From a virus, in IMG/VR virus record IMGVR_UViG_3300037493_003111, positions 1-42,765 of that record: a stretch of DNA of 42,765 bases; one strand, written 5' to 3'. The notes under the pieces were generated by a model. It was given only the letters and a program-made list of their open reading frames with translations, had not been told where the DNA came from and did not search any database. Below are positions 4,551 to 36,976 of this stretch, one piece after another. The first letter of the stretch is position 1. The number at the start of each line of letters is the position of its first letter. The translations under genes and the position numbers were made by a program.

Positions 4551-5461
4551 AAGTAATTTTTATTTCACATCAGGATTATGCAAACTTTTCATTTGATAAA
4601 AGTGAATCATTAAAATTATTTGGTGTTGATGCTGAATCATTCGTTTATAAAAAGCATCCATTTGGATATTCAGAACAAGCAAAAGTTGTTGATGAAACGG
4701 GAATGAAAAAACAAATTGCAGAAGCAGATGTAATTCATGTAATGCATTCATGTGGAACAATGTGGGATTTAGTAAAAGATACAGGAAAAAAAATTTATGT
4801 TTGGCATACAGGAACACGATACAGAACAGAACCTGAAAAACATAATTCACGATGGAATCCAATTATTGAAAAATCAATTTATGCATTAGGAGAATTTGAA
4901 AATCTTGGATGCAAAAACGGAGAATATTTTTCAATTACAATTAATACAGATAAAATAAAATTTGTTTCAAGCAATAATTCTAAAATAACATTTGGACATT
5001 TTCCAAGTAATCCGCAGGTAAAAGGAACAATGACAATTACAAGAACATTATCAGAAGTAAACCGCATAAGATTTAGAAAATTTGAACAAAATCTTTCTGT
5101 AAAAAGATGTGATTTTAATTCACAGTTAAAAAGGATTGCAGGAATTGATGTTTACATTGAGATGTGCGCGACAAGGCAAGGAACAAAGCCTTATGGATCA
5201 TTTGGAACAACTGCATTAGAATGTTCTGCAATGGGCAAACCTACAATTACAAATATGCTTTGGGAAAATGTTTACAAAAAGTATTATGGTGAACATAAAT
5301 TAATTATTGCAAATTCAAGTAGTGATTTAAAAAAAAGATTAATTGAATTTTGTGATATGAATTTAAATGAATTAAAAATAATGAGTGAAGAAGTTAGAAA
5401 TTTTGTTGAAGAAAAACATTCATATCAAGCAACAGGAAAAAGATTATTAAATTATTTATGA
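4547..5461 (+). CDS. Glycosyltransferase, GT-B / family 4-like
   Basis: A 304-residue protein. A Rossmann-like N-terminal half (strand K-V-I-F-I-S, later A-D-V-I-H-V-M-H) is followed by a C-terminal nucleotide-sugar-binding half with P-Y-G-S-F-G-T-T-A-L-E-C and A-M-G-K-P-T-I at about residues 214-235, the usual GT-4 acidic loop with the conserved glutamate. A short helical C-terminus follows. It overlaps the previous and next genes by four bases each, so translation of the cassette is probably coupled. The acceptor is unknown. Being slightly shorter than typical cellular GT4 enzymes suits a phage enzyme. Confidence 0.8.
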   Translation: MKVIFISHQDYANFSFDKSESLKLFGVDAESFVYKKHPFGYSEQAKVVDETGMKKQIAEADVIHVMHSCGTMWDLVKDTGKKIYVWHTGTRYRTEPEKHNSRWNPIIEKSIYALGEFENLGCKNGEYFSITINTDKIKFVSSNNSKITFGHFPSNPQVKGTMTITRTLSEVNRIRFRKFEQNLSVKRCDFNSQLKRIAGIDVYIEMCATRQGTKPYGSFGTTALECSAMGKPTITNMLWENVYKKYYGEHKLIIANSSSDLKKRLIEFCDMNLNELKIMSEEVRNFVEEKHSYQATGKRLLNYL

Positions 5462-5571
5462 CAGAAGCAGGGCAATATAATTTTGAACCAAAAGATCCTA
5501 AAAGTGGATGTTTGATTGTTACATTATTTACATTTATTTTTTGGATTACAATTTTATACATCATATCATGA
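5458..5571 (+). CDS. Small single-pass membrane protein
   Basis: A 37-residue ORF: a polar N-terminus (about 17 residues, with P-K-D-P-K-S-G) and then one hydrophobic segment rich in I, L, F and W running to the C-terminus. It starts with the ATG of an ATGA overlap with the upstream glycosyltransferase and ends in another ATGA overlap with the methyltransferase, so it fits exactly between two coupled genes. That phasing is the main support for it being real. It might tether or assist the glycosylation enzymes at the membrane, which is speculation. Confidence 0.6.
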   Translation: MTEAGQYNFEPKDPKSGCLIVTLFTFIFWITILYIIS

Positions 5572-6125
5572 CAAAAGAAGAATACATAAATAAGTTGCGT
5601 AAATTTAATTCAACAGAAAAATATATTTTAGAATTAGATTTTTTATTGGGATTAATACAACCATATCCAAATAATAAAATAATTGATTACGGTTGCGGTG
5701 TTGGTACTGCGGTTAAATATTACAGGAACATAACGCAAAGAATTTCGTTTATGGGTTTTGACATTGTTGATCATGTATCAACAGAAAAAACAAAAACACC
5801 TTTATGGTTTATTCAGGAATTAGAAAATTGTGATGTTGTTTATTTTTTACATTCATTTGCACATATTCCAAATATTTCAAAAGTATTATTAGAGATGCGC
5901 GAGAAAGTAAAAAAGAAAGTAATTGTAATTACACCAAATGCTCAATGGTTACGATTGCAGATAAATGAAAATTATATTCCTGATCCAACAGTTGTGATGC
6001 ATTATACACATGATGAATTAGTAGAAACATTTGAAGATGTTGGATTTAAAATTTCCATTAGCGGACAGTTTGGAATCCGCGCAAACAATCAACACGAAAG
6101 ATTATTTTTAGTTGCAAAGCCATGA
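5568..6125 (+). CDS. SAM-dependent methyltransferase, class I
   Basis: A 185-residue protein with motif I D-Y-G-C-G-V-G-T at residues 40-47, followed by an acidic strand end (G-F-D-I-V) and a motif-IV-like segment (C-D-V-V-Y-F-L-H-S) typical of small class I methyltransferases, then V-I-V-I-T-P-N. The start chosen is the ATG at 5568 because it overlaps the stop of the small membrane gene (ATGA); an upstream TTG at 5508 would run through that gene. Next to three glycosyltransferases it may methylate a sugar, as in O-methylated glycans. A DNA target is unlikely because there is no (D/N)PPY motif. Confidence 0.8.
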   Translation: MTKEEYINKLRKFNSTEKYILELDFLLGLIQPYPNNKIIDYGCGVGTAVKYYRNITQRISFMGFDIVDHVSTEKTKTPLWFIQELENCDVVYFLHSFAHIPNISKVLLEMREKVKKKVIVITPNAQWLRLQINENYIPDPTVVMHYTHDELVETFEDVGFKISISGQFGIRANNQHERLFLVAKP

Positions 6126-6883
6126 CAACAATCGTTTATCCTTACCTGCATAGATTATCACAAGGTGATGAATTAAAGTATTCAATTAGATCATTATGTA
6201 AATATGCCAAATTTGATTTTGATATTGTTTTAGTTGGTGATAAACCTGATTGGTATAATGGTAAATTTATTCCAACAACACCAATTAGAAATAAAAGATT
6301 TACACGCGCATTTGATATTGCAAAAAAATTAGAAATCATTTGTGAATCAAAAATAATTTCAGAAAATTTTATTTACATGTATGATGATCAGTATTTCATT
6401 AATGATGTTTATTTATCTGATTTAGAAAAATCAATTTCAATAAACGAAATCAAAGAAAGAAGAAAACCAAATGTAGGTTCAGAAGTTTGGCGCGAATTAA
6501 TGAGCAGAACAGTTGATGCATTAGTAAGTAATGGAAATGATATTGTTTACAATTATGAAACACATTTACCAAGAACATTAAATAAAAAAAAATTGAAATT
6601 AATTATTGATGCTTATGATTTGCATCATGTTCCATTACTATTTAATACTCTTTATTTTAATGAATATTTTGAACAACCTGAAATCATTCTTGAAAAAGAA
6701 AACAAAATTAAAGCAGGTATTTACAAAGCAATGACAAGTGATGAAATCCGTAATTTATGCGCAAGTAAATTAATAATGAATCATGGAGAAAAAGCATTTA
6801 ATCATCCGTTAAAATTATTTTTAAAGAATACATACCATAAAATTTGTAAATTTGAATTAAATTATAATAAAGATGATAAATAA
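6122..6883 (+). CDS. Stealth-type glycosyl/sugar-phosphate transferase-like protein
   Basis: A 253-residue protein. It opens with a GT-A-like strand-helix (V-Y-P-Y-L-H-R, then D-F-D-I-V-L-V-G-D), and residues 85-93 read Y-M-Y-D-D-Q-Y-F-I, closely matching the metal-binding conserved region 2 of Stealth proteins (hexose-1-phosphate transferases of capsule synthesis), followed by H-H-V-P near residue 168, reminiscent of region 3. It overlaps the upstream methyltransferase by four bases and the downstream structural gene by eleven. It probably transfers a sugar or sugar-phosphate within the same pathway as the two upstream transferases. Family placement is from motif resemblance only. Confidence 0.65.
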   Translation: MTTIVYPYLHRLSQGDELKYSIRSLCKYAKFDFDIVLVGDKPDWYNGKFIPTTPIRNKRFTRAFDIAKKLEIICESKIISENFIYMYDDQYFINDVYLSDLEKSISINEIKERRKPNVGSEVWRELMSRTVDALVSNGNDIVYNYETHLPRTLNKKKLKLIIDAYDLHHVPLLFNTLYFNEYFEQPEIILEKENKIKAGIYKAMTSDEIRNLCASKLIMNHGEKAFNHPLKLFLKNTYHKICKFELNYNKDDK

Positions 6884-27810: not shown

Positions 27811-28569
27811 ATGAAAAACTTCAACAACTATTTATTCAGATGCTCTGCATTAGGTAAGTTAATGACTGATCCGCGTTCTAAATCTGAAACACTTTCAGAA
27901 ACAACAAAAACATATTTAAATGAAATATTTTTGCAGGAAATTTATCAGCGCAAAAAAGATATTTCAAATAAGTACATGGAAAAAGGATTGATGTGTGAAG
28001 AAGATTCATTGAGTTTATACTCTGAAATGAATAATACTTTTACAATAAAAAATAAAGATAAATTTTCAAATGATTTTATTATTGGAACACCTGACATATT
28101 AGGAAAAAATAATGTTGATGATATAAAAACATCTTGGAATTTATTTACATTTTTTGATGCAGAAGTAACAAAGGATTATGATTGGCAATTAGAAGGATAT
28201 TCAATTTTGACAGGCAAAGAAGAAAAAAGATTGGTTTATGTATTGGTAAATTCACCTGCAAATTTAATCACAGATGAAAAGCGCAGGTTAGGATGGCAGT
28301 TAAATGATTTAGAAGGAACATCAGAATTATTCATTGAGAAAGCGCAACAGATTGAAAGAAACATGATCTTTGATTTAGCAGAATTCAAAAAAGAAAATCC
28401 ATTTTTTGAAATGCATACACCTGATGCAGATTGGAATTTTGATATTGAAAAAAGTAAAAGAATTAAAATTTTTAATGTTGAAAAGAAAACAGAAGAAGAA
28501 AGAAATAAATTAATAAATCGTATTACAGAATCAAGAAATTACTTAAATTTACTATTAGAAAACAATTAA
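27811..28569 (+). CDS. YqaJ-like / PD-(D/E)XK recombination exonuclease
   Basis: A 252-residue protein. It starts with R-C-S-A-L-G-K-L-M-T-D-P-R (residues 10-22), the substrate-end helix of YqaJ-type viral recombinases, then K-G-L-M-C-E-E-D (58-65), G-T-P-D-I with the metal-binding Asp at 95, V-D-D-I-K-T at 102-107 as the (D/E)xK motif, and W-Q-L-E-G-Y at 125-130. It would resect double-strand ends to 3' single strands for the RecT protein encoded shortly downstream. The start at 27811 is fixed by AACAACC directly in front; an upstream TTG at 27694 lies inside the previous gene. Confidence 0.8.
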   Translation: MKNFNNYLFRCSALGKLMTDPRSKSETLSETTKTYLNEIFLQEIYQRKKDISNKYMEKGLMCEEDSLSLYSEMNNTFTIKNKDKFSNDFIIGTPDILGKNNVDDIKTSWNLFTFFDAEVTKDYDWQLEGYSILTGKEEKRLVYVLVNSPANLITDEKRRLGWQLNDLEGTSELFIEKAQQIERNMIFDLAEFKKENPFFEMHTPDADWNFDIEKSKRIKIFNVEKKTEEERNKLINRITESRNYLNLLLENN

Positions 28570-34336: not shown

Positions 34337-34471
34337 ATGCCTTACGCATCCAAAAAACAACAAAAATATTTTCATACAAAAGAAGGAATGAAAAAAGTAG
34401 GTATGAAAGTAGTAAAGGAATTTGATCAGGAATCAAAAGGTAAAACAATTCCGAAAAAAATAAAAAAATGA
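34337..34471 (+). CDS. Small basic phage protein (M-P-Y-x-S-K-x-Q-Q type)
   Basis: A 44-residue protein starting M-P-Y-A-S-K-K-Q-Q-K-Y-F-H, a pattern seen at the start of many tiny phage proteins of unknown function, followed by K-V-V-K-E-F-D-Q-E-S-K-G-K and a lysine-rich end. It ends in a four-base overlap with the ParB-like gene, so the two are coupled. Confidence 0.7.
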   Translation: MPYASKKQQKYFHTKEGMKKVGMKVVKEFDQESKGKTIPKKIKK

Positions 34472-35082
34472 AAATGAATACAATGCAAATTGAATTAGTT
34501 GAAATTGAGAAAGTGAAAACAAATCCAAATAATCCGCGTATTATTAAGGATGATAAATTTAAAAAATTAGTAAAATCAATTCAGGAATTTCCTAAGATGC
34601 TTGAAATTAGACCAATTGTTGTTAATGATCAGATGATTGTATTAGGTGGAAATATGAGATTGAAAGCGTGTATTGAAGCAGGATTAAAAAAAATTCATGT
34701 GATTAAAGCGAATACGTTATCAGAAGAACAACAGAAAGAATTTATAATAAAAGACAATGTTGGATTTGGTGAGTGGGATTGGGAAATGATAACAAATGAA
34801 TGGGGTGCAGAAACATTATCAGATTGGGGTTTGGATGTTGGTGGTTTTGATTTAGATAGTGATGAATTAACAACTGATTTTAGTTTGCCTGATGGAGACA
34901 AATCACCATTTCAGCAAATAACTTTTACACTTGCAAATGAACAAGCGGATCAGATTAAAAACGCAATAGCAGATATTAAGGAAACGGAAGAATATAAGTA
35001 TGTTGAAACAATGGGAAATGAAAATAGCAATGGAAATGCTTTATATTTAATTATTATGCAATGGAAAGAGAATACAAAATAA
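34468..35082 (+). CDS. ParB-like nuclease-domain protein
   Basis: A 204-residue protein. Residues 7-90 carry the ParB/Srx-type pattern: N-P-N-N-P-R at 19-24, K-L-V-K-S-I-Q-E-F, R-P-I-V-V-N at 48-53, V-L-G-G-N-M-R-L-K-A at 58-67. In phages this domain usually precedes a DNA methyltransferase domain; here it stands alone, followed by an acidic middle and a C-terminal strand-helix. The next gene, a Mom-family protein, begins 22 bases before its end, so the ParB-like protein may guide or assist DNA modification, binding DNA or a nucleotide. Confidence 0.8.
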   Translation: MKMNTMQIELVEIEKVKTNPNNPRIIKDDKFKKLVKSIQEFPKMLEIRPIVVNDQMIVLGGNMRLKACIEAGLKKIHVIKANTLSEEQQKEFIIKDNVGFGEWDWEMITNEWGAETLSDWGLDVGGFDLDSDELTTDFSLPDGDKSPFQQITFTLANEQADQIKNAIADIKETEEYKYVETMGNENSNGNALYLIIMQWKENTK

Positions 35083-35750
35083 ACGAACAATTAAAAAATG
35101 TATTAGTTAAAGTTATAGATAGTAAAGTTGCAAAAGAATATACTATTAAAAACCATTACATGAAAACATTTCCTATTCCTAAAGTTTGTTTTGGAGTATT
35201 TTATAATAAAAGATTACATGGAGTTTTAACATTTGGATTATCTACATCAACTAAACAAAAATTACAAAAAATAATACCAAATATAGAAGATGGTGAATTT
35301 ATAGAAATGCAAAGAATGAATATATCTGATATACTTGGTAACAATGCAGAAAGTTTTGTGCTTGGTAAAGTTTATGAATTATTTAAAAAAAATACAAAAA
35401 TAAAAATCATTTTAACACATGCAGGTGGATGTAAAAATGATTGTGGCATTGTTTATCAATCATCATCTTGGATGTATTTTGGAAAAGAAAAATGCGATGA
35501 TTTTTATTTAACTGAAAATGGAGAATATAAAAATATAATTGCACCAATGCGTTTTGGTAGAGTTCCAAAAGGAATAAAAGGTGGACAAGCAATAGGAGAA
35601 GCATTATTTGGTTCGGGTAAAATAATAAATTCTTTTAGATATTTATATTTATATCCTTTAAATAAAGGATTAAGGTCTTTTTTATCTAAAAAAGAACAAC
35701 AATATCCAAAAGATAGTTTAAATTTTAGAAAAAACCAAGAATGGATTTAA
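35061..35750 (+). CDS. Mom-family DNA modification protein, paralogue 1
   Basis: A 229-residue protein of the GNAT-like Mom type: V-K-V-I-D-S-K-V-A-K-E-Y-x-x-K-N-H-Y at 16-33, F-G-V-F-Y-N-K-R-L-H-G-V-L-T-F-G at 44-59, E-M-Q-R-M near 76, and G-I-V-Y-Q-S-S-S-W near 129-137 in place of the second paralogue's G-T-I-Y-R-A-S-G-F. Mom of phage Mu converts adenine N6 to a carbamoylmethyl form that blocks restriction. The C-terminal 60 residues are basic. It ends four bases before a tRNA-like element. The two paralogues are clearly diverged. Confidence 0.75.
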   Translation: MEREYKINEQLKNVLVKVIDSKVAKEYTIKNHYMKTFPIPKVCFGVFYNKRLHGVLTFGLSTSTKQKLQKIIPNIEDGEFIEMQRMNISDILGNNAESFVLGKVYELFKKNTKIKIILTHAGGCKNDCGIVYQSSSWMYFGKEKCDDFYLTENGEYKNIIAPMRFGRVPKGIKGGQAIGEALFGSGKIINSFRYLYLYPLNKGLRSFLSKKEQQYPKDSLNFRKNQEWI

Positions 35751-35754
35751 AAAT

Positions 35755-35804
35755 GGGGATAACCAATAGGGGTTTTATAGTTAGTTCGAACCTAACTATC
35801 TCCA
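35755..35804 (+). other. Minimal tRNA-like element A (acceptor plus T-arm)
   Basis: GGGGATA (35755-35761) can pair with TATCTCC (35797-35803), seven pairs with one wobble. Directly inside is a perfect T-arm: GTTAG (35780-35784), T-loop TTCGAAC (35785-35791), CTAAC (35792-35796). Only 18 bases fill the place of the D and anticodon arms, with a possible short AACC/GGTT hairpin. The spacing from T-loop to the end is that of a tRNA. An alternative eight-base pairing (35711-35718 with 35794-35801, followed by CCA) competes with the T-stem. It may be a relic, a mini tRNA-like structure or chance. Confidence 0.4.
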
Positions 35805-35814
35805 CAAAATAAAT

Positions 35815-36588
35815 ATGGGCAGAGCAAAAGAAATAATAGTTAAAGTAATACCATCAAAGGTTGCTAATGAGTTTGTGAAAAAAAACCACTATTCAGGTAA
35901 AGTAGTTCCAAATAGTAATTTACATTTTGGTTGTTTTTTAGATGATAAATTGCATGGAGTGATGAGTTATGGAAGTCCAATAAATAAAAAAGGATCAATT
36001 AATTTAGTTGAAAATACGGGTTGGAATGAAATGTTAGAACTAAATAGAATGGCTTTCGATGATTATTTGCCTAAATATTCTGAAAGCAGATGTATTGCAA
36101 TAAGTATTAAGTTAATTAAAAAAAACGCACCACAAATAAAATGGATTTTAAGTTTTTCAGATGGTACTCAATGCGGTGATGGTACTATTTACAGAGCGAG
36201 TGGTTTTAAATTAGTAGGTATAGCAAAAAGCGGACAAGTTTTTAAATTTAATAATGAAGTTTTACATGGAAAAATATTGTGGGATAGATGCTTAGTAACA
36301 GGATGGACTGTTTCAGATAAAGAGATGCAAAATTTAAGAGATAAAGGAAATACAATAGAAAGATTAATTGGCAATCAATTAAAATATATTTATTTAATTG
36401 ACAAAAATTGTAAAATAACCTTACCAATTTTACCATTTAGTAAAATAGATGAGTTAGGAGCAGGAATGTATAAGGGAAAAAAAATATCTTTGAATGATAG
36501 GAAGCAACAAGCGAGAGAAGTTAATGTGGATAAACGCAATACATCCTGTATTGAAATAGGCGGTTCGAGTCCGACCTTCTCGCTCTAA
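35815..36588 (+). CDS. Mom-family DNA modification protein, paralogue 2
   Basis: A 257-residue protein: V-K-V-I-P-S-K-V-A-N-E-F-V-K-K-N-H-Y-S-G-K at 9-29, L-H-F-G-C-F-L-D-D-K-L-H-G-V-M at 36-50, E-L-N-R-M-A-F-D-D near 79-87, and S-D-G-T-Q-C-G-D-G-T-I-Y-R-A-S-G-F near 116-132, matching Mom-type adenine modification proteins. Later P-F-S-K-I-D-E-L-G-A-G-M-Y-K-G marks the end of the conserved part. The last 25 or so residues are translated from a tRNA-like sequence (element B), giving the odd terminus G-G-S-S-P-T-F-S-L. It would modify adenines in phage DNA to resist restriction. Confidence 0.8.
   Translation: MGRAKEIIVKVIPSKVANEFVKKNHYSGKVVPNSNLHFGCFLDDKLHGVMSYGSPINKKGSINLVENTGWNEMLELNRMAFDDYLPKYSESRCIAISIKLIKKNAPQIKWILSFSDGTQCGDGTIYRASGFKLVGIAKSGQVFKFNNEVLHGKILWDRCLVTGWTVSDKEMQNLRDKGNTIERLIGNQLKYIYLIDKNCKITLPILPFSKIDELGAGMYKGKKISLNDRKQQAREVNVDKRNTSCIEIGGSSPTFSL
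36511..36584 (+). tRNA. tRNA-Gly(TCC)-like cloverleaf, element B, overlapping the Mom gene end
   Basis: Folds on the + strand as: acceptor GCGAGAG (36511-36517) with TTCTCGC (36577-36583), six Watson-Crick pairs plus one wobble; D-arm GTT/AAC (36520-36522, 36533-36535) with GG in its loop; anticodon stem CAATA/TATTG (36537-36541, 36549-36553) with seven-base loop CATCCTG; five-base variable region; T-arm GGCGG/CCGACC with one bulged A and loop TTCGAGT (36564-36570); discriminator T at 36584. Anticodon TCC, T73, G1:C72, C2:G71 and C35-C36 are glycine features. Oddities: A at positions 8 and 33 instead of T, no encoded CCA. It may be non-translating or a relic. Confidence 0.55.
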
Positions 36589-36607
36589 AAACAGAAAGTT
36601 TTTAATT

Positions 36608-36976
36608 ATGGCACAAAAAGATTTAATACCATTTGTAAAAGGACAGTCAGGAAATCCAAAAGGAAGACCGAAAGGAATACCAAATTCAAAACAAAGATTT
36701 TTAAGATTACTTGAATTAACACAAAAGAAAAAAAATCCTGTTACAGGTGAGATAGAAGAATTTACTGTTGCTGAACAAATGGATATGGCAATAATATCAA
36801 AAGCATTGAAAGGTGATATTAATGCATATAAAGAAATATTAGATCGTCTTGAAGGGAAATCAAAATCACAAATAGATGTAACAACAGATGGTGAAAAAAT
36901 TATTCATGAAGTTGATTATTCAAAATTATCAAGTGAAGTTTTATTATCAATTGTAAATGCATCAAGAAGAAAATAA
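36608..36976 (+). CDS. Small terminase subunit-like protein (DUF5681 type)
   Basis: A 122-residue protein starting with F-V-K-G-Q-S-G-N-P-K-G-R-P-K-G (residues 8-22), the hallmark of DUF5681 proteins that precede large terminases, then helical DNA-binding-like sequence (S-K-Q-R-F-L-R-L-L-E-L), K-A-L-K-G-D-I-N-A-Y-K-E-I-L-D-R-L-E-G-K, and a short C-terminal helix. It overlaps the large terminase start by 20 bases. It would recognise the packaging start and stimulate the motor. Confidence 0.8.
   Translation: MAQKDLIPFVKGQSGNPKGRPKGIPNSKQRFLRLLELTQKKKNPVTGEIEEFTVAEQMDMAIISKALKGDINAYKEILDRLEGKSKSQIDVTTDGEKIIHEVDYSKLSSEVLLSIVNASRRK

Follow-up and report, generated by a model that had tools for sequence, protein, structure and literature searches.

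The locus raises the question of why tRNA-like elements should be interleaved with a ParB-like gene and two genes of the Mom family, and whether these RNAs serve the Mom proteins. The stretch analysed (hereafter, the window) is the whole of the 42,765 nt virus record IMGVR_UViG_3300037493_003111. The answer that we favour, at a probability of a little under 0.8, is that ParB-Mom1-RNA(Ala)-Mom2-RNA(Gly), in this order, is an aminoacyl-tRNA-dependent DNA hypermodification system.

Gene content of the module

A sequence-only reading of the window had proposed a ParB-like gene and two Mom genes running in one direction. Pfam confirms all three on the plus strand, and the boundaries given for both RNA elements proved exact (Table 1).

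Table 1. Features of the module and their supporting matches
Feature	Position	Strand	Evidence
ParB_N-domain gene	34468..35082	+	Pfam ParB_N 2e-6; opens the module
Mom1 paralogue	35061..35750	+	PF25680 1.7e-36, 126.3 bits
Ala-type minihelix RNA, 50 nt	35755..35804	+	7-bp acceptor, 5-bp T stem
Mom2 paralogue	35815..36588	+	PF25680 7.2e-50, 169.9 bits
Gly-type tRNA-like RNA	36511..36584	+	acceptor GCGAGAG/TTCTCGC; member of a 62-row covarying family

Both Mom scores exceed the curated PF25680 cut-off of 27.1 bits. By motif (NAES versus NSES in Mu), Mom1 Ser98 (35352-35354) corresponds to the catalytic Ser124 of Mu Mom and is unchanged across 9 sequences; the counterpart in Mom2, Ser91 (36085-36087), is unchanged across 35. 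The AlphaFold model of Mom1 (pLDDT 77.7) has Mu Mom 8bv8 as its top PDB match (Foldseek 1.7e-11), and that of Mom2 (pLDDT 92.1) aligns to the same structure with a VIA-align Z of 21.5 and rmsd 3.2 over 194 residues. As modelled, Mom1 and Mom2 share the GNAT-like fold of Mu Mom together with its catalytic Ser. Most of the other structural matches listed are acyltransferases of the GNAT type, in many cases from crystals containing CoA; the absence of an aminoacyl-tRNA transferase among the matches listed for Mom1 and Mom2 says little. The conserved Mom2 protein stops at about 36510 and the remainder of its ORF crosses the Gly-type RNA gene.

The ParB gene is a regular companion: where at least 500 nt of upstream sequence is present, mom is immediately preceded by a ParB homologue in 74/74, 49/52 and 34/34 related loci. 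Among the loci listed for the RNA pattern, on the other hand, ParB was found in only 76 of 120.

A Gly-type RNA and an Ala-type minihelix

Alignment A1 holds 62 of 67 unique Gly-type strings, leaving out antisense palindrome duplicates (L059, L068, L053) plus L087 and L100. Across these 62 distinct elements 99.5% of 1240 cells are paired, with 384 double-sided changes against a shuffle mean of 102.9, and structures slid along the same alignment pair at just 35-48%. Covariation spans the acceptor, D, anticodon and bulged T helices, of which the D, anticodon and T helices, as well as the bulge, were outside the selection criteria. A first model with a canonical 5-bp T stem containing mismatches was replaced by the bulged stem, since the bulged register pairs and covaries.

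G1-C72 and C2-G71 occur in 62/62 rows of A1, G3-C70 in 61/62 (one GU) and U73 in 62/62, features that are partly there by construction given that rows were selected on acceptor stem, GCG and U73. C35 is found in 62/62 rows and C36 in 61/62, these two having been selected only as a "CC" in the middle; the one row departing from C36 is that of the window, which does have CC but is displaced by one position in the alignment. The part of PMC9976931 consulted (Table 1) gives U73, G1-C72, C2-G71, G3-C70, C35 and C36 as the bacterial glycine identity set. Judged by sequence, the conserved positions of the Gly-type RNA are this set and the RNA is a tRNA-Gly derivative. In the window, C35C36 fall at 36545-36546, the bulged A of the T stem at 36574 and U73 at 36584; CCA is not encoded. 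The element scores 50.4 bits with model R1, of which it is a training row. A descriptor composed with knowledge of the family (GCG start, 7-bp acceptor, bulged T stem, CC, U73) matches the window at this element only, against 0.00 matches per copy in 100 first-order Markov copies.

The second RNA is shorter. In the window it carries G3.U70 (35757/35801) and A73 (35804) and encodes no CCA, and both the D arm and the anticodon arm of tRNA-Ala are absent, with an 18-nt linker in their place. Linkers are 16-18 nt long across loci, with 27 nt in L100. All 156 of 156 cells (100%) are paired in 13 distinct Ala-type elements, and in their alignment (A4) G2-C71, G3.U70, G4-C69 and A73 are present in 13/13 rows and the linker motif ACCAATAGGGG in 12/13. 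The bacterial alanine identity set is A73, G2-C71, G3.U70 and G4-C69 in the same table (PMC9976931, Table 1). The window minihelix scores 73.0 bits with model R2 (training row). The Ala-type descriptor matches the window twice, once here and once by chance (28030-28084), and is matched 0.18 times per Markov copy; the window minihelix alone is therefore not significant, and conservation decides. Two of 31 matches in the Ala-pattern scan lacked a T arm and were discarded as chance. Single-sequence folds of the two elements are only mildly stable (z -0.99 and -1.97), and for the minihelix such folding gave no information. The glycine features noticed earlier are confirmed for the 36511 element; the 35755 element has the identity of alanine, not of glycine.

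Departures from translating tRNAs

ARAGORN calls no tRNA in the window, and no Rfam family reaches its gathering score there; even at E ≤ 10, Rfam returns only five unrelated weak matches over 34400-36700, none of them tRNA. Both elements thus escape standard tools. The T stem is broken by the bulged A in 62/62 Gly-type rows. Read in the canonical register, at most 3 of 5 T-stem positions are paired in 34/36 Mom-linked genome elements (all but L141 among 37 R1 matches with E ≤ 0.1), versus 4 or 5 of 5 in 16/16 control R1 matches from 10 genomes, these controls being our choice from 35 such matches; the two copies in L143 have canonical T stems. The anticodon loop has 8 nt in 41/62 Gly-type rows and the normal 7 nt in 21/62. 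For the window a 7-nt reading (CATCCTG) is possible, in which position 33 is A rather than U. Fifteen aligned elements (A8) have no D arm, having been chosen by us as D-armless from length and reading. CCA is encoded in both elements of phage Y8A and in 22/36 genome elements, and in 0/62 of the Bacteroidota-type ones.

Partnership of the RNAs with Mom genes

Both RNA families adjoin mom, mostly directly 3′, in phages and in bacterial genome contigs of many phyla. A Gly-type element lies within 200 nt of the domain end in 99 of 101 mom2 domains, and in the remaining two it starts 179-190 nt past the matched region; an Ala-type element stands beside 25 of 26 mom1 domains. The sequence-only reading had named a lack of tRNA-like sequence beside related Mom genes of other phages as grounds for refutation; the outcome speaks strongly in its favour.

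The same partnership emerges from the RNA side. Scanning viral contigs with the Gly-type pattern alone gave at least 120 matches, treated as a sample; among the matches listed, 108/120 have a Mom within 400 nt, at a median distance of 14 nt in these 108 cases, always on the same strand, with the RNA 3′ of Mom in 89 and 5′ in 19. A perfect 7-bp acceptor beginning with GCG is present in 114 of the 120 listed. The Moms so reached include ones with only a distant relationship to Mom2: for 67 ORFs, a few being contig-end fragments, the Mom2/Mom1 profiles give no more than 150 bits. These ORFs form 21 clusters, and in 54 cases the nearest Moms are those of Polaribacter phage P12002L or Listeria phage LP-114. 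All 10 distant Moms tested beside a Gly-pattern RNA belong to PF25680.

Each RNA type keeps to its own paralogue. In 80 Mom2-found loci the Ala model matches exactly the 4 that also have mom1, and of 55 genome loci it picks out the 2 that contain mom1 and no others (L125 at 2.4e-12; L164 at only 0.071). By these sequence matches, the Ala-type RNA goes with Mom1 and the Gly-type with Mom2, and the amino acid carried probably differs between the two paralogues.

Model R1 also scores cellular tRNA-Gly and so cannot by itself prove the link genome-wide. A bulged-T descriptor (GC start, CC, U or A at base 73) is matched near mom in 33/55 genome loci and 5 times elsewhere in 526,548 strand-nt; stripped of its letter filters it gives 35 loci near mom and 103 matches elsewhere. 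The D-armless model R3, searched in 894 genomes (140, 385 and 369) with only some 13-37 candidates scored per genome, returned 4 matches, all training loci beside mom, and none new.

Some loci depart from the pairing. Models R1-R3 find no element at Mu mom and 16 other isolate mom loci, L105 of phage Y8A among the 16 and some near a record end, which indicates that not every Mom needs one, unless a host tRNA serves there. A 3′ element is absent from 13/55 genome loci, including L172, cut at the contig end, and L173, a partial mom; nine of the 13 are in the tree, all within a single Bacillota-rich subclade in which the remaining members do carry the element. Among the Gly-pattern matches listed, 12/120 are not near Mom. 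In eight of these the contig extends less than 200 nt on the 5′ side (L238, L249, L269, L282, L293, L308, L326 and L349; L282 additionally lacks an acceptor stem), and L248 has its Mom 1303 nt away. The other three have room on the 5′ side: L335 has a C5 methyltransferase as neighbour, L315 has none known, and in L291 a DruA takes the place of Mom beside the same RNA. Further relatives of this DruA were not found in viral contigs, and only distant ones in phage records. R1 and ARAGORN find no element at the Pelagibacter phage DruA gene, nor at the ParB loci of Leptospira phage LE4 (with an ATPase-like/GNAT protein) and Bacteroides phage BS-TP3 (with a methyltransferase).

Alternative explanations

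The elements might be cis-acting structures of mom mRNA, involved in processing, stability or translational control in the manner of Com/mom in Mu, an account that we consider improbable. Most elements do abut mom, and in 26/36 distinct same-strand cases the mom2 stop codon lies inside or past the element, so that RNA maturation would cut the mRNA. A cis-acting element, however, shares the strand of the gene that it controls, and 44 of 80 elements (about half, in Bacteroidota-type phages) are antisense to mom, which makes them RNA genes rather than mRNA parts. A -7-like box of their own, TAnnTTTG within 60 nt upstream, precedes 22/28 distinct antisense elements versus 4.0% of random windows. 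Sense-strand elements lack a clear promoter box of their own (TAnnTTTG in 12/36, mostly inside mom), and the form with an upstream TTG is found in 0/36 sense versus 10/28 antisense elements. Nor would a cis element need a glycine or alanine identity set, or CCA.

We give an equally small chance to the RNAs being structural cofactors or DNA guides, bound by Mom or ParB without donating amino acids. The bulged A and the D-armless shape do resemble a protein-specific handle, and nearly all loci reached from Mom1 or Mom2 have ParB immediately upstream, but no variable guide-like stretch was noticed in the RNAs, and what is conserved is what synthetases read, plus base 73 and often CCA.

Slightly less credible still is that these are ordinary translation tRNAs of the phage, or decaying copies, lying near mom by chance. 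ARAGORN labels some relatives tRNA-Gly(TCC), and R1 gives 36.6-57 bits to the 16 controls, taken to be cellular tRNAs, so the Gly type is indeed related to tRNA-Gly. Decay, though, would not preserve compensated helices, C35C36 and U73 alongside a bulged A that is retained in 62/62 rows, decoding is not expected of D-armless forms or of a 50-nt form without anticodon, and the Mom linkage held in the reverse, RNA-first search among the matches listed.

No better placed than chance tRNAs is a decoy function, with tRNA mimics absorbing host anticodon nucleases, tRNA-sensing defences or synthetases in infection. Phages do counter tRNA-cleaving defences with tRNAs and the Gly types retain an anticodon loop; the minihelix, however, has no anticodon, and the Ala type follows one Mom paralogue, as a decoy need not. 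Integration-site remnants seem unlikely, the elements lying on either strand beside mom and many having no D arm.

A proposed route from charged RNA to modified DNA

Returning to an aminoacyl-tRNA-dependent system, each Mom paralogue would have its own small RNA, retaining only what an aminoacyl-tRNA synthetase needs. Host GlyRS would charge the Gly-type RNA and host AlaRS the alanine minihelix, after addition of CCA to those RNAs that do not encode it. The charged RNAs would be barred from EF-Tu and the ribosome by the break in the T stem, the place of EF-Tu binding, together with the changes to the anticodon loop and the loss of arms. We infer from RNA identity and linkage that Mom, through its GNAT fold, may then move the aminoacyl group from the RNA onto the adenine N6 amine of phage DNA; the earlier idea of aminoacyl-tRNA-like donors for the Moms is to that extent supported, charging and transfer to DNA being its conditional steps. 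With glycine, the new alpha-amine could attack purine C6 in a Smiles-type shift via a five-membered ring, which would convert N6-glycyladenine to the known Mu base, alpha-N-(purin-6-yl)glycinamide; the alanine route would give alaninamide. ParB probably aids DNA choice or access.

With less assurance than for the module itself, we lean towards a wider proposal: a widespread phage class would write amino acids onto DNA by means of dedicated, ribosome-excluded tRNAs, including a natural 50-nt alanine minihelix. On adenine N6, glycine would be placed by one Mom paralogue and alanine by the other, with an intramolecular rearrangement forming the amide. Such a route, using host tRNA-Gly, would account for the origin of the Mu mom base, and DruA may be another tRNA-dependent enzyme. 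No report of a reaction class in which tRNA is the amino acid donor for DNA was found in the literature searched. If true, such a donation would supply the missing donor of the Mu modification, a question decades old. It would likewise provide natural minimal tRNAs, the alanine minihelix among them, and a case of a phage shielding charged tRNA from EF-Tu. The tRNA-donor reading may also bear on DruA of the Druantia defence system.

Comparison with known systems

Mu Mom (8bv8) has PF25680, the fold (Z 21.5) and the catalytic Ser in common with the window Moms. Unlike the window, Mu has neither an RNA element nor a ParB next to mom by the models used, and its mom is regulated by Com. The Mu product, an N6-carbamoylmethyl (glycinamide) adenine, is an amide derived from glycine; the title of Swinton 1983, as cited in PMC3874153, gives the Mu base as a glycinamide.

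Another parallel is with Staphylococcus, where the acceptor of the Fem transferases is peptidoglycan, whereas that proposed for Mom is DNA. As far as is known, the tRNAs-Gly that serve Staphylococcus peptidoglycan are complete isoacceptors rather than reduced RNAs with genes next to the transferase. The portion of PMC4052509 consulted describes a non-proteinogenic tRNA-Gly with T-stem changes at EF-Tu contacts that feeds these transferases.

A classic minimal substrate of AlaRS consists of acceptor and T arm with G3.U70 and A73, as does the window minihelix. CmoX, whose phage base likewise gains a small carbon unit, has donor chemistry of another kind. In the parts of PMC12783734 consulted, its carboxymethylcytosine is a hypermodification handle made at cytosine C5, with no tRNA seen, whereas the target proposed for Mom is adenine N6. 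The alanine RNA of the window differs from its known counterparts in being naturally encoded. AlaRS charges alanine minihelices, and those known are, to our knowledge, laboratory constructs.

Two RNA elements in the Mom module

The sequence-only reading proposed that two tRNA-like elements beside paired Mom genes may supply or regulate a glycyl-tRNA-like donor for DNA modification. The coordinates that it assigned to both elements are exact; standard tRNA tools run on the window detected neither.

Features of the Mom module in the window, which is the entire virus record (42,765 bases)
Feature	Position	Strand	Remark
ParB_N gene	34468-35082	+	first in module
Mom1	35061-35750	+	next after ParB_N gene
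50-nt element (Ala type)	35755-35804	+	between Mom1 and Mom2
Mom2	35815-36588	+	conserved region reaches about 36510
74-nt element (Gly type)	36511-36584	+	after conserved part of Mom2
DUF5681 gene	36608	+	occupies small-terminase place
Large terminase	36957	+	after DUF5681 gene

Over 36511-36588 the Mom2 ORF runs on through its RNA gene, and of 36 distinct same-strand cases, 26 have the mom2 stop codon within the RNA element or past its end. Given this overlap, maturation of the same-strand RNA could cut the mom mRNA.

Conservation and linkage to Mom

Both elements are conserved RNAs. Scans of viral contigs provided the best 80 of 464 Mom2-related loci, some of them near-identical, and 22 Mom1 loci. 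Across these loci, a GCG...CGC-U element lies within 200 nt of 99 of 101 mom2 domains, and for the remaining two (L013, L043) the Gly-type RNA model places an element 179-190 nt beyond the matched region. The 62 distinct Gly-type elements align over acceptor, D, anticodon and T helices with 99.5% of 1240 cells paired and double-sided changes in 384 cells vs 102.9 in shuffles; slid-structure controls are 35-48% paired. The model finds one match in each of the 80 loci, mostly training rows or their copies, and none other at E ≤ 1 (423,702 bases). The Ala type, an acceptor plus T-arm minihelix, follows 25 of the 26 mom1 domains with enough downstream DNA, and its 13 distinct elements show 100% of 156 cells paired and 32 double changes. 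The sole domain among the 26 without it is a third, distant Mom homologue (L086:556-978) in a phage already harboring Mom1 and Mom2; no element was detected behind it.

The RNAs belong with Mom. A genome scan using a Mom2 alignment returned 55 loci from many phyla, 36 of them matched by the Gly-type model at E ≤ 0.1; a bulged-T structural descriptor adds five (L154, L166, L171, L174, L176) and one, with 6/7 acceptor pairs, was recognised by eye (L157), giving 42 of 55, among which L131 (~330 nt) and L136 (~1.3 kb) have the element more distant from mom. Thirteen of the 55 present no element 3′ of mom, including one cut at the contig end (L172) and one with only part of mom (L173). Upstream of parB-mom, Bacillota loci without a 3′ element carry a gene resembling tRNA-Gly whose T stem has a mismatch (L145, 1206-1280) or a canonical-looking tRNA-Gln (L128 and L129, 1749-1823).

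In the reverse test, viral contigs scanned with the Gly-type RNA pattern alone yielded at least 120 loci. Among the matches listed, 108 of 120 lie on the same strand as a Mom no more than 400 nt away (RNA 3′ of Mom in 89, 5′ in 19), 101 of these Moms being nearest Mom2 by profile and 7, weakly, nearest Mom1; no strong Mom1 or Ala-type element occurs across those 120. Numerous Moms in RNA-pattern loci are just distant relatives of the window's, and all ten tested are PF25680. Of the 31 Ala-pattern matches, 29 sit 14 nt or less from a Mom, the loci having mom1 (28), mom2 alone (1) or neither (2). Two of the 31 matches were attributed to chance.

Each RNA type accompanies its own Mom paralogue. 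In a tree with some long branches elsewhere, Mom1 and Mom2 form separate clades (support 100/99 each). From the 80 Mom2-found loci (best 80 of 464), the Ala-type model picks out L036, L037, L060 and L077, which are the four that carry mom1. In the genome set of 55 it picks out L125 and, with a weak score, L164, again the mom1-bearing pair. Three loci (L210, L211, L213) show the order mom2-mom1 followed by both RNAs in tandem, CCA encoded.

RNA genes and aminoacylation identity

Sequence features indicate that the elements are RNA genes. According to the Gly-type model, 44 of 80 are antisense to mom and 36 sense; the latter may be co-transcribed with mom. Within 60 nt upstream, 22 of 28 distinct antisense elements have TAnnTTTG, the -7 box of Bacteroidetes, vs 4.0% of random windows from the same loci, and in 10 of 28 a TTG also precedes it with a spacing of 15-22 nt vs 0.6%. 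Twenty-two of the 36 genome elements encode CCA, but none (0 of 62) of the Bacteroidota type does, and these would need it added. In the isolate Psychrobacter phage Y8A, ParB and Mom2 are followed by a tandem pair of D-armless elements that encode UCCA; its authors, who used tRNAscan-SE, list no tRNA genes (PMC10434257).

Judged by sequence, both RNA types carry aminoacylation identity elements. Table 1 of PMC9976931 gives the bacterial tRNA-Gly set as U73, G1-C72, C2-G71, G3-C70, C35 and C36. Invariant in the 62 Gly-type rows are G1-C72, C2-G71, C35, U73, the T-stem closing pair and a bulged A; G3-C70 is kept in 61 (GU in one), as is C36, for which the single departure is due to the alignment slipping in the row of the window itself. 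The tRNA-Ala set of the same table (A73, G2-C71, G3.U70, G4-C69, G20) is invariant in all 13 minihelices except for G20, which would fall in the D loop that they lack.

The RNAs do not look built for the ribosome. The T stem has its bulged A in 62/62 Bacteroidota-type rows, and in the canonical register 34 of 36 genome elements form at most 3/5 pairs, while 16 control matches of the same model (10 genomes, same set) form 5/5 (15) or 4/5 (1). Both exceptions come from L143. The anticodon loop has 8 bases in 41 of 62 Gly-type rows and 7 in 21. In 15 aligned elements (genomes, phage Y8A, viral contigs) the D arm is missing, and their bulged acceptor-T structure also covaries.

Other loci and enzymes

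Tandem mom2 duplications occur in Bacillota, mainly in Clostridia, Lachnospiraceae among them (L133, L135, L137-L141, L143, L144, L146), with one Gly-type element by the model, or two with canonical T stems in L143. An odd element 3′ of another Mom2 (L124:3224-3320) has D and T arms, no anticodon arm, a different acceptor and encoded CCA.

At L291, where Mom is absent, a Gly-type element (6284-6350) sits at the 3′ end of a DruA-domain ORF (5227-6366; PF14236, 8.3e-28), perhaps a second enzyme family using this RNA. The preceding gene is ParB-like by eye; the fragment tested had no Pfam match. The post-ParB gene upstream of the terminase genes varies among phages: Mom in some, a methyltransferase in Bacteroides BS-TP3 and, in Leptospira LE4, a GNAT-annotated protein whose N-terminus is ATPase-like (L384, L385 comparison). 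This position resembles a slot in which DNA-modifying enzymes are exchanged.

Proposed mechanism and comparison with known systems

Mu Mom (8bv8) is the best structural match of both the Mom1 and Mom2 models, and Mu Ser124 is conserved as Ser98 and Ser91, respectively. The title of Swinton 1983, a reference in both PMC3874153 and PMC4461284, gives the Mu product as alpha-N-(deoxyribofuranosylpurin-6-yl)glycinamide. We propose that adenine N6 would attack a glycyl ester on the RNA, and that the free alpha-amine would next attack C6, expelling the amide nitrogen and leaving the Mu-type glycinamide; alanine would give alaninamide by the same route. The literature searched, with most subscription journals and bioRxiv beyond reach, contained no tRNA-Mom link, and earlier publication is possible.

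Models of the Gly-type, Ala-type and D-armless forms found no such RNA at Mu mom or 16 further isolate mom loci, where the ParB neighbour is also absent. The dedicated RNA may therefore be a specialised supply where host tRNA-Gly falls short. A parallel case, described in PMC4052509, comes from S. aureus: T-stem positions 49-65 and 51-63 let three tRNA-Gly evade EF-Tu, which allows them to supply Fem enzymes.
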